Position numbers and translations under genes: made by a program
Source: a virus
Virus record (IMG/VR): IMGVR_UViG_3300042691_019871
Span: 1-37,439 of that record
DNA length: 37,439 nt
Strand: one strand, 5' to 3'
Shown here: one piece after another, positions 6,154 through 37,439 of the stretch
Numbering within the stretch: position 1 is the first letter of the stretch
Layout of the letters: each line of letters starts with the position of its first letter
The notes under the pieces: generated by a model
Told to the model about the DNA's origin: nothing
Database searches by the model: none
What the model saw: only the letters and a program-made list of their open reading frames with translations

Positions 6154-9100
6154 ATGAGTTATACAAAAGATCCTGTCTATGGAAATCATTTAGGAATTGT
6201 AATAAATAAAGAAGATCCCGAATATAGAGGTAGAGTACAGGTTTGGATACCACATATGTCCAATACTTTACATACTGATTGGAATGCTGAATTAAAAGAT
6301 AAAAAATTTAAACATATACATGATTCTGGTGCATTAACTCCTGCACTAATAGAAGAACTTAAAAAAGTATTACCATGGGCAGAATGTGCTTCTCCTATTA
6401 TGGGTGGAGGAACAGCCGCTAAATATAATTCATATACAGGACAAACTGATACATATCCTGCTAGAACATTTTTAGGTTCAAAAACCGATTATGGTGATAA
6501 CTTATTAATACCTAATGATGGTGGAAATAATCCAAATACTAATGGTTTAAATAAAGAATTTACTAATAGATTAAATGGGTTATATAAAGATTTAAATGAT
6601 TCTGGATATTATATAGGTATTACATCTGGAGCTAGAATAGGAAGCAGTGGGGCGCACAATGCAGCATTACAAAATGGTGCTATTGCTGTAGATGTTAGAG
6701 TTAGAGGTAATGGAAAATATGGTAATATTAATATAAATGAAATAAATCCTGCTCTTGATAAAGAAAAAAATATAGATTCAGTTGAGTTCGGACAACTTTT
6801 GGAAAAACATGGATTATGGCAACCTATGCATCCAGATAGAGGAGAAAGTAAAAACTGGGGATCACCTTTATATGAAAAATGGCATATAGAACCTATAGAA
6901 ACTAGACAACTAGATAACAATGGAAAAATAATAGCTAATACTAATCGGGGTAGTGTTTTGTTTGGTTCTATATCTAATACATTAAATAAAACATCGTCTG
7001 ATTTAGAAGAAAATGTACTTACTAAACGACCAGTTGATACTGCGGAGATTCCAGGAACATCTATAAATCCTTCAAAAACAGCTACTGATATTACTAGAGG
7101 ACCAGAAAGTTTCGGTGAATCCGGATCTACTCAAAATTTAGTGAATGTTAAAACAGTTCCAACAACAGGTTATAGTATCGGTAAATCTTATGGAGGAACA
7201 GACGAAACAGAAGATTCTGGAACAGGTAGAGGTGTGGGATCTTTTGAAAACGAACTAAGACCGGGTGTTGTAGCTGTTAATACTAATATATATCCAATTG
7301 GGACAATATTTAAGAATGCTGATACTGGTAATGTTTATATAGCAGCAGATAAACACGGTAATTCTAATCCGAACGTTGTTGATATATACTATACACCTTC
7401 CCAGTATAAACAACTTAAAGAAAAGGGAACTCCAAATACTCCTGTAAATTTAGCTGTAATAGGAAAAGTAGATCAAAGAGATATACCAAGAACATCAGAT
7501 GGTTTAAAAAACTTTTTATCACAATATGGAAATGTTCCAGAAGGAGAGGGTGCTTATGAATTTTTGGCTAGTGCAAAAGATGGAAATTTTATAAACTCTC
7601 CGATGGTAAGTCCAATACCAAACTTTAATCCAGCCACATATCCATCTAATTTATCAGGAGCACAACCTTCTGGATTTGTTTCTATACCTGATGCTGGAGC
7701 AAAAGTTTTTGTATTTTTCTTGGGTGGTGACATACAAAAACCAGTTTATTTTGCTGGATTATTAGAAACAGAATCGTATAGAAAAGCTGTACAAACAGCA
7801 TCTGATGGAACCGATATAATATCTGGAAATCAATATGGTTCTAAAAGTTACTTAGGATCGGAAGCTGGTGGACTTGGGATGCAATACAACCATTCACAAT
7901 CAACTGAAACTGGACTTCCTTCTATAGAAAACAATGTTAGATTAAATAATAGTTTAGGATCAGCTCTTAATTTAAATTCTGGTGACGGTAGTTTAACAAT
8001 ACCAAATAATTTTTCACTTATTAGTGGAGAGGTACATCAATCATCATCTCTTTATGATTTAACATCTAAACTAATTCATCAAAAATCTGAAGAAGATACA
8101 ACAATTCAGATTGGATTTGGTTCAAAAGAGGAAAATAAAACAAAATTTGAGGCTTATGAAAAATTACAAAAAATTATAAATGATGTACAAAAAAAGAAAG
8201 TAGAAGAAATAAAACAAAAATCAAAAAAAGGAGAGAAGGTTCCTTGTCCTTTATGTTCTACTTCTCACGCAGTAGATAGAGCTAGTTCGGCTGCTAAAAA
8301 GGTAAAAACTCTTTTAAGAAAAATAAAACTTCCTTATTTTTCTTATGCAGTTGATACGCTTGCTTTTTTAGCAGAATTAATAATGATTCCGTTTTGTTCT
8401 ATAGTTCCTGGTAGTGCATTGGGAGAATGTGGTAATTCTGATTGTGAAAAAGGTATGATACCTTCTCCACAAAAACCAATAGAAGAAGCAAATAAAAATG
8501 CAGCAAAAGCACTTGCATCAAAACAAAAAGAAATAGCAAAACTTGAACAACAATTAGGAAACGGTGGTAGTTATACTGTTTGTGCTACTAAAGATATTGT
8601 AATATCTGCTGGATTGCCTAGTGGTGATAATAATGATGCTCCTTGTTATGTAGAAACTGTTAATAATTCAATAACTGTGGGATTGAAAGCAAGTAAAGAT
8701 AAACAAACGTTAATTCCTAGATCTGCTGATAATTGTAAAAATGTAGTTTGCTGTCCCTCTATTCAAGCACCTGGTGGAAACATAATTTTAAGAGGAGGAA
8801 ATGCCGTAAAAATAATAGCAGGATCACCTGGTATTGAATTATTAACAAAAGGAAAACTAACTCTTAATTGTGGATCTTTGGAGATTTTAACAAGTGATGG
8901 ACAAATGACTCTTGGATCAAACAATCATACAGTAATAAAAGGAAAGGTAGTAACGATAGATGCTGATGATAGAAGTGGTGAAGGAGGAGTTGAAATAAAA
9001 GCTCCACATATGAGTTGTAAAGGGCTTTCTGTTTCTGGTGATGCTGGTATAAAGGGTGGTCTTAGAATAGATGGAGAATTATCTGTTGCCTATGTAAATG

Positions 9101-9747
9101 GTGTTGCTCAGAGAATGAGTACCGATGATGCTATGCCTCCGGATCAAAGTGGAAAATTTTCAAATTGGGCTGTTGGTTCTGCTCAAACTAATGATATTGC
9201 AAACTCCATCAGATTAGCAATAACTCATTATGGAATGAAGGATGCTATGCTTCTTTTATCAAATATAATAAAATATGTTCAAGAATTATATAATACAATT
9301 TTAGTTAATACAGTCGTAGAAACAAATACAACTGGATTTGGAGTGGGTTATGGATATGTTCAAATGTATAATTGGCATCATAATCATATGAAAGAACCAG
9401 ACCCCCATAATCATGATTATATAATACAAAGAGGAACACTAGCTGATAGTAAAGATGCTGTTTATAGTGCTGCTGTAGAACCTAATCCTGTACCAACCAG
9501 AGCAAGACAGAAAGGAATGGGTCCAGATGGTGGTCCAAAATCATTAGCTGGTTGTGGTGGGTTTGGTGGATGGGGTGGAGGTTCTTATAAAGGTAGAAGA
9601 TCCAAATATAATAAATTAAATTCTTTTGGTTTATATGATAAAGTAAAAGGGTTTTCTGGAACTAAGTTACAAGATAATAATGTAACTTATAAATACAATA
9701 AAGACGGTTCTATTGAATTTAATATAGATGAAAAACCATGTGATTAA
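6154..9747 (+). CDS. 5: Baseplate central spike, gp5-like, with M15-like and 3D domains
   Basis: A 1197-residue cell-puncturing spike. The gp5-type OB fold starts at about residues 5-82 (GIVINKEDPEYRGRVQVWIP; LPWAECASPI) and resumes at about 510-541 (IPDAGAKVFVFFLGGDIQKP). Between them lie an M15-peptidase-like domain (H168, D180, then E241 and H244 in YEKWHIEP) and a 3D domain (about 355-425; GVVAVNTNIYPIGT, AADKHG with D399, VVDIYY with D410). The first 3D aspartate position is N376. A linker with CPLC (698-701) follows, then a C-terminal beta-helix-like region (about 870-985) and a His-rich segment (HHNHMKEPDPHNHDY, 1075-1089). T4 gp5 instead carries a GH24 lysozyme after an uninterrupted OB fold. 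The role is to bore through the outer membrane and cut peptidoglycan. The stop codon overlaps the stop of the convergent minus-strand gene. Confidence 0.85.
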   Translation: MSYTKDPVYGNHLGIVINKEDPEYRGRVQVWIPHMSNTLHTDWNAELKDKKFKHIHDSGALTPALIEELKKVLPWAECASPIMGGGTAAKYNSYTGQTDTYPARTFLGSKTDYGDNLLIPNDGGNNPNTNGLNKEFTNRLNGLYKDLNDSGYYIGITSGARIGSSGAHNAALQNGAIAVDVRVRGNGKYGNININEINPALDKEKNIDSVEFGQLLEKHGLWQPMHPDRGESKNWGSPLYEKWHIEPIETRQLDNNGKIIANTNRGSVLFGSISNTLNKTSSDLEENVLTKRPVDTAEIPGTSINPSKTATDITRGPESFGESGSTQNLVNVKTVPTTGYSIGKSYGGTDETEDSGTGRGVGSFENELRPGVVAVNTNIYPIGTIFKNADTGNVYIAADKHGNSNPNVVDIYYTPSQYKQLKEKGTPNTPVNLAVIGKVDQRDIPRTSDGLKNFLSQYGNVPEGEGAYEFLASAKDGNFINSPMVSPIPNFNPATYPSNLSGAQPSGFVSIPDAGAKVFVFFLGGDIQKPVYFAGLLETESYRKAVQTASDGTDIISGNQYGSKSYLGSEAGGLGMQYNHSQSTETGLPSIENNVRLNNSLGSALNLNSGDGSLTIPNNFSLISGEVHQSSSLYDLTSKLIHQKSEEDTTIQIGFGSKEENKTKFEAYEKLQKIINDVQKKKVEEIKQKSKKGEKVPCPLCSTSHAVDRASSAAKKVKTLLRKIKLPYFSYAVDTLAFLAELIMIPFCSIVPGSALGECGNSDCEKGMIPSPQKPIEEANKNAAKALASKQKEIAKLEQQLGNGGSYTVCATKDIVISAGLPSGDNNDAPCYVETVNNSITVGLKASKDKQTLIPRSADNCKNVVCCPSIQAPGGNIILRGGNAVKIIAGSPGIELLTKGKLTLNCGSLEILTSDGQMTLGSNNHTVIKGKVVTIDADDRSGEGGVEIKAPHMSCKGLSVSGDAGIKGGLRIDGELSVAYVNGVAQRMSTDDAMPPDQSGKFSNWAVGSAQTNDIANSIRLAITHYGMKDAMLLLSNIIKYVQELYNTILVNTVVETNTTGFGVGYGYVQMYNWHHNHMKEPDPHNHDYIIQRGTLADSKDAVYSAAVEPNPVPTRARQKGMGPDGGPKSLAGCGGFGGWGGGSYKGRRSKYNKLNSFGLYDKVKGFSGTKLQDNNVTYKYNKDGSIEFNIDEKPCD

Positions 9748-37348: not shown

Positions 37349-37439
37349 GTTGTTTCTAATTTAGTTATATCTACTATATTTTTTAGATCATAACTCATTG
37401 TTTTAAATATATGTTCTATTTTTTCTAAATATTCGATCA
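37345..37439 (-). CDS. uvsY: Probable UvsY, C-terminal fragment (cut by window end)
   Basis: A 31-codon open frame that runs in from the right edge and stops with a TGA inside the ATGA start of uvsW. The readable tail (EYLEKIEHIFKTMSYDLKNI, then VDITKLETT) resembles the end of UvsY proteins of T4-like phages, which close with a helix followed by a SY.IKN-[AIV]-[VI]-[DE] pattern (T4: SRGFAIKHIQDMRAF). UvsY loads UvsX onto gp32-coated ssDNA, and uvsW and uvsY are neighbours in T4-like genomes. Only the tail is seen, so this is an inference. Confidence 0.5.
   Translation of the reverse strand, partial: IEYLEKIEHIFKTMSYDLKNIVDITKLETT

Follow-up and report, generated by a model that had tools for sequence, protein, structure and literature searches.

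Two candidate wall-cutting domains lie within the split OB fold of a phage central spike, at a site where relatives carry other domains

The window, that is, the whole stretch of DNA analysed in this study, is the 37,439-base IMG/VR virus record IMGVR_UViG_3300042691_019871, from position 1 to position 37,439. It encodes a terminase, a T4-type tail tube, a gp32-like SSB, a DHH phosphoesterase, UvsX, a DnaB-like helicase, SbcC and a family B DNA polymerase with about 31% identity to cyanophages. The window comes from an uncultured phage of the T4 superfamily that has no cultured close relative. The central spike gene and the features found along it are the following:

6154..9747, + strand: central spike gene, gp5-type, 1197 aa (open reading frame, OB matches and relatives)
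6154..6411, + strand: N-terminal half of the OB fold, residues 1-86 (OB HMM columns 12-31 at residues 13-32)
6472..7014, + strand: slot 1, approximately residues 107-287, which varies among relatives (break of DNA homology with the relative L002)
6493..6906, + strand: domain of most likely M15 fold, residues 114-251 (hhalign to the PaBG endolysin; Ply500 by Foldseek)
7012..7089, + strand: inter-slot linker, residues 287-312, which includes TAEIPGTSINPSK (75-86% identical DNA blocks)
7150..7491, + strand: slot 2, 3D/MltA-type domain, residues 333-446 (hhalign, Foldseek and AF2 confidence)
7657..7764, + strand: C-terminal half of the OB fold, residues 502-537 (OB HMM columns 60-95; Phage_base_V)
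7813..9744, + strand: C-terminal needle region, residues 554-1197 (conserved in relatives; weak Pfam match to DUF2345, E 0.086, below the cut-off)

Residues H168, D180, E241, H244, N376, D399 and D410, which a first-pass annotation of this DNA had singled out, are each at their claimed position in the 1197-aa reading frame. The needle region is predicted to form a beta-helix plus a tip. It is broken at about 8240-8440 of the window (residues ~697-764), where a conserved CPLC...CGNSDC cysteine cluster flanks a hydrophobic helical stretch; this cluster is found in long-spike members and is possibly a zinc-binding insert. Close to the C-terminal end, at about 9373-9417 (residues ~1074-1088), HHNH and HNH motifs recall the metal-binding tips of other spikes, and these motifs are changed in the relatives L003 and L004.

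The first-pass annotation had proposed that the OB fold begins near the N terminus and resumes at about residue 510, and our profile searches agree with this. The Pfam Phage_base_V model matches two separate stretches of the window spike, as it does in relatives, and its positions 42-74 fall on residues 504-536. We also searched the spike family with an OB HMM made from the unbroken OB domains of seven cultured phages. Its columns 12-31 and 60-95 match residues 13-32 and 502-537 of the window spike in order, with an E value of 7e-6 at Z=1000 for the full-length protein. Such ordered pieces are found in 18 of 18 family members, while reversed decoys give no meaningful match, and in L002, L003 and L004 the HMM columns of the LPWAE region align with the residues that correspond to 73-86. 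The N-terminal OB half of the window spike is 58-89% identical to those of long-spike relatives. By sequence, then, the window protein is a gp5-type central spike with its OB fold broken between residues ~86 and ~502. The same loop has only about 12-25 residues in T4, KVP40, HTVC008M, S-RIM2, phiM12, RHph_Y65 and Alishewanella phage Slicko01, in line with the earlier figure of about 20 for T4. The AF2 model of the window spike is poor, with a mean pLDDT of 50 and about 40 in the OB halves, and the 3D/MltA-type domain is its best-confidence part. An assembly artefact or a gene fusion is excluded by the same layout in many other contigs, and since thirteen more proteins, encoded on other contigs, have two-domain inserts at the same OB site, the split OB fold is not a matter of chance or assembly error.

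Neither slot of the window alone gives a Pfam match of its own, and PDB sequence searches with the M15 and 3D groups found nothing. However, comparison of profiles relates both domains to known families. Residues 114-251 in slot 1 share 52% identity with the same region of L008, and L129 supplies a third sequence of this type (M15a), with a weak match to VanY (E 7e-4). A profile of these three sequences matches the M15 endolysin of Pseudomonas phage PaBG, itself a Pfam M15_3 protein (E 6e-24), at 95.4% and E 1.7e-8 in hhalign, whereas control profiles of unrelated slot domains reach 1.1% or less against the M15a group. The hhalign profiles used in this study come from shallow alignments, and for this reason we place weight on the contrast with the controls and not on the probabilities. 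When the whole AF2 model was compared with 350,542 PDB chains by Foldseek, Ply500 ranked 2 (E 0.059) and LdcB ranked 5 and 8, these M15 relatives having E values of 0.06-0.3. The match to PaBG, the clean controls and the presence of Ply500 and LdcB in the Foldseek list make M15 the most likely fold of the slot-1 domain, as had been suggested from the sequence.

The zinc motif of this domain is another matter. Of the residues proposed to form it, D180 is kept, and so is the second M15 motif, ExxH, as E241-K-W-H244, which is the same in L008. H168 probably does not belong to the set. The histidine lies seven residues ahead of the aspartate in relatives, as in HYSGIAAD of L008, HGFGIAAD of L129 and HDNGYAAD of L003, and other M15 groups also keep this spacing, whereas H168 of the window sits twelve residues before D180 and so departs from His-x6-Asp. 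The annotation had aptly cautioned about the longer spacing, which is real; a frameshift is ruled out as its cause. A two-sequence alignment had suggested that five residues were simply inserted after the zinc histidine, but L129 speaks against this. In the three-way alignment the window segment IGSSGAHNAAL, which contains H168, pairs with IGSTGTDQATL of L129, upstream of the ligand histidine (SNHGFGIAAD), and the ligand-histidine loop is absent from the window domain. H168 is therefore probably not the homologous histidine or the zinc ligand. The first zinc histidine is probably gone from the window M15 domain, and this domain, probably degenerate, may serve for binding or as a spacer.

For slot 2, the claim of a transglycosylase-type 3D domain stands. 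A profile of window residues 333-446 together with L002, L007, L031 and L044 matches the 3D protein of Moorella phage MTATph1, a Pfam 3D member at E 1e-22, at 95% and E 4e-8 (hhalign), and unrelated slot domains used as controls reach 2.4% or less against the 3D profile. The Pfam 3D model itself finds no match in window slot 2 at E 10. In the Foldseek list for the whole model, YuiC ranks 1 (E 0.041), 3 and 4, and MltA ranks 9 and 10. The fold comparison that had been suggested thus places M15 and 3D/MltA structures high, but no match reaches E 0.001, none is below 0.04 and unrelated chains are interspersed in the ranks. A VIA fold search is likewise supportive only, with no Z above 5.8 and unrelated chains interspersed; its list for the slot-2 barrel includes expansin and kiwellin. 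YuiC uses its third aspartate, D162, as the catalytic residue, with T91 orienting it, and a part in the reaction is also proposed for D151 and Y93 (PMC4499186). The window equivalents of D162, T91, D151 and Y93 are D410, T338, D399 and Y340, the threonine and the tyrosine being assigned by motif. The 11-residue spacing of D399 and D410 is that of D151 and D162, and T338-G-Y340 corresponds to T-x-Y. N376, about which the annotation had rightly been cautious, aligns with the AVD of the known 3D protein. As it is the first aspartate that is replaced, and the catalytic third, D410, is kept, the 3D domain may still cut and is the likelier active of the two enzymes. The asparagine (AVN) variant is common to L002 and L044; in the latter (L044:675-4658), a phage contig that is otherwise different, the AVN-variant 3D domain lies close to the N terminus of a protein of 1328 residues.

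Sequence comparison across relatives indicates that the OB loop is a widespread two-slot cassette site, and that the window is one state of it and not a one-off. The domains found in the loop are M15 of three types, CHAP-like, M23-like, SLT-like, GH24 lysozyme, PF18013 tail lysozyme and 3D, where the names CHAP-like, SLT-like, M23-like and RNNNPGN-type come from motifs only. The pairs, slot 1 before slot 2, are M15a and 3D in the window, M15a and a 3D-like motif in L008, M15a and PF18013 tail lysozyme in L129, M15b and SLT-like in L003, M15b and GH24 in L006 and L012, M15b and 3D in L031, M15c and GH24 in L010, M15c and PF18013 in L109, CHAP-like and 3D in L002, CHAP-like and SLT-like in L004, M23-like and 3D in L007, and M15-like and RNNNPGN-type in L140. 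Members with a single domain include L027, L028, L030, L035, L107, L112, L120 and L128. Some of these assignments stand above curated cut-offs, namely GH24 in slot 2 of L006, L010 and L012 (Phage_lysozyme, E 3e-9 to 1e-14), the PF18013 tail lysozyme (E 1.5e-12 and 1.9e-9) and the Hedgehog/DD-peptidase fold match of L010 (26 bits against 22.1). The CHAP assignment in L002, L004 and L094 refers to Cys/His motifs only, and L002 and L004 have no Pfam match there; the structure model of L004, with a mean pLDDT of 44, is unusable. A motif reading of L008 slot 2 as canonical 3D finds no support in profile comparison, which gives 0.2-0.5%. The loop domains of L103, L106 and L032 have no confident family; that of L103 is SleB-like by motif, and those of L106 and L032 may be one and the same unassigned domain.

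In the first set of relatives the peptide cutter was always first, but this rule does not hold, since L145 looks reversed, with a glycan-type domain first; the order is thus a tendency, with putative peptide cutters usually in slot 1 and glycan cutters in slot 2. A wider scan found 171 relatives, of which 80 were kept. Among these 80, many loops of about 106-139 residues have no domain, while domain-bearing loops have 293-548 residues, and a long loop without a domain may be the older condition. In L027, L028, L030, L034, L035 and L036 the protein stops just past the C-terminal OB half, and the needle, if any, is another gene. M15b is also found outside spikes: in the cultured Rhizobium phages RHph_Y65 and RHph_N46, a large tail protein bears it close to its C terminus (L049:2481-5693 and L050:3132-5792).

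The loop domains are exchanged between spikes that are otherwise closely alike. L006 and L010 have OB halves that are 100% and 98% identical and needles that are 91% identical, and their slot-1 domains have no detectable relation. L006 and L008 are 94%, 98% and 88% identical over the same three parts, yet differ in both slots. For slot 1 of the window spike, an alignment scores Z 0, compared with 89% identity over the OB half. The borders of the exchanged segments recur at the level of DNA. Homology between the window and L002 ends at residue 106 and returns at 287, and in five pairs the break falls at nucleotides 317-327 of the gene. In three pairs the inter-slot linker is a block of 69-77 nt, 75-86% identical, between unrelated domains, and homology resumes ahead of the C-terminal OB half. 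With 73% identity between the slot-1 M15b domains of L003 and L006 but 51% between their needles, the cassette seems to have been transferred between lineages. The spikes of L008, L009 and L014, whose contigs come from three different samples, are identical over at least their first 720 residues.

With the split fold, the domain relationships and the exchange at shared junctions as observations, we infer the trimeric state of the spike, the location, timing and catalysis of its domains and the fitness reason for the arrangement. Our explanation, to which we give a probability of roughly 80%, is that the gene encodes a trimeric puncturing spike with wall-cutting domains at two fixed positions of the OB loop, and that these domains are exchanged by recombination. 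The OB fold would mount the trimeric spike on the hub and the C-terminal part would be the needle. Upon contraction the spike would enter the periplasm, where the domains borne by the long loop would open the peptidoglycan for passage of the tube and so take over the job of the T4 gp5 lysozyme; this role at entry is suggested by their position and by the domain content. Across the family, the peptide cutter would usually be in slot 1 and the glycan cutter in slot 2, and either cassette would be swapped independently of the other when lineages recombine at the conserved junctions. Of the two domains in the window copy, the 3D domain is the likelier active enzyme, with the M15 domain probably degenerate and perhaps a binder or spacer. 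We further lean, with only modest confidence, to the view that the loop works as a two-socket mount, in which one socket mostly receives peptide cutters, the other mostly glycan cutters, and enzymes of differing bond specificity are swapped at fixed junctions so that the phage could track host peptidoglycan without altering other tail parts.

Several other explanations have to be weighed against this one. It is conceivable, although we doubt it, that both loop domains of the window are dead as enzymes and only bind the wall or hold the spike, while another virion protein does the cutting. The probable loss of the first zinc histidine from the M15 domain and the asparagine in place of the first 3D aspartate would fit such an idea, but D399 and D410, the counterparts of D151 and the catalytic D162 of YuiC, are kept with their 11-residue spacing and the T-x-Y motif, and the AVN variant, being common to L002 and an unrelated virion protein of L044, is a conserved subtype rather than a sign of decay. 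We also think it unlikely that both window domains are active, with H168 binding zinc through a rearranged loop and with peptides and glycans both being cut. All of H168, D180, E241 and H244 are present, and SGAH of the window resembles GSAH at the ligand site of L008; however, the pairing of IGSSGAHNAAL with an L129 segment upstream of the ligand histidine, the missing histidine loop and the 7-residue spacing kept in other M15 groups argue against this. The claim that the spike cuts both peptides and glycans is accordingly better supported for L008, L129, L010 and L006 than for the window copy. More improbable still is that the insert does not serve entry at all, its domains acting late in host lysis or binding surface polysaccharide. 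M15 endolysins such as that of PaBG are annotated as lysis enzymes, and the fold of the slot-2 barrel is also seen in expansin and kiwellin, but the domains lie within the spike scaffold, PF18013 tail lysozyme and GH24 are among the domains found in the slots, and a related M15 domain is found near the C end of a Rhizobium phage tail protein.

No similar spike was found among cultured phages by tblastn, where the only near match was Alishewanella phage Slicko01 with its unbroken OB fold, or in the bacterial genomes searched, and no account of hydrolase cassettes in the OB loop was found in the open-access literature searched. According to a 2018 review, endopeptidase domains of virion lysins are nearly confined to phages that infect Gram-positive hosts (PMC6116005), and the long-spike family is worth checking against this statement once its hosts can be assigned. 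The family reveals a place at which a contractile spike can accommodate large enzyme domains, and at which these are repeatedly swapped in nature. It makes testable whether the host peptidoglycan type selects the spike enzyme, and why some phages would carry two bond specificities when sister phages have an empty loop of about 106-139 residues.

Staphylococcal HydH5 is a virion-associated lysin with two different wall-cutting domains in one protein. The long spikes resemble virion lysins of this type in having two such predicted domains in one virion protein, but differ in that the HydH5-type domains are not in an OB fold, and exchange of cassettes at fixed junctions is not described for them in the literature examined. 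The PaBG endolysin shares the M15 fold by profile; unlike the window domain, which is probably without the first zinc histidine, it is a free endolysin with an intact zinc motif. With YuiC, MltA and other 3D lytic transglycosylases the window domain shares the second and the catalytic third aspartate, their spacing and T-x-Y, and it differs from them in its first aspartate, which is asparagine, in lying below detection by Pfam 3D and in its place inside a phage spike. A further comparison is with T4 gp5, in which a lysozyme follows the complete OB fold and opens the peptidoglycan once the spike has been driven into the periplasm (PMC3004832). The window spike has no Phage_lysozyme match and its OB fold is interrupted, so that it does not have the T4-type layout of GH24 after the OB fold. 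The two designs would share an N-terminal OB fold, a wall-cutting domain and a C-terminal needle, the last two being predictions for the window spike, and GH24 itself is found in slot 2 of L006, L010 and L012. In contrast to T4, however, this family has its candidate enzymes within the OB loop, where a long spike usually bears two, and relatives have exchanged them.
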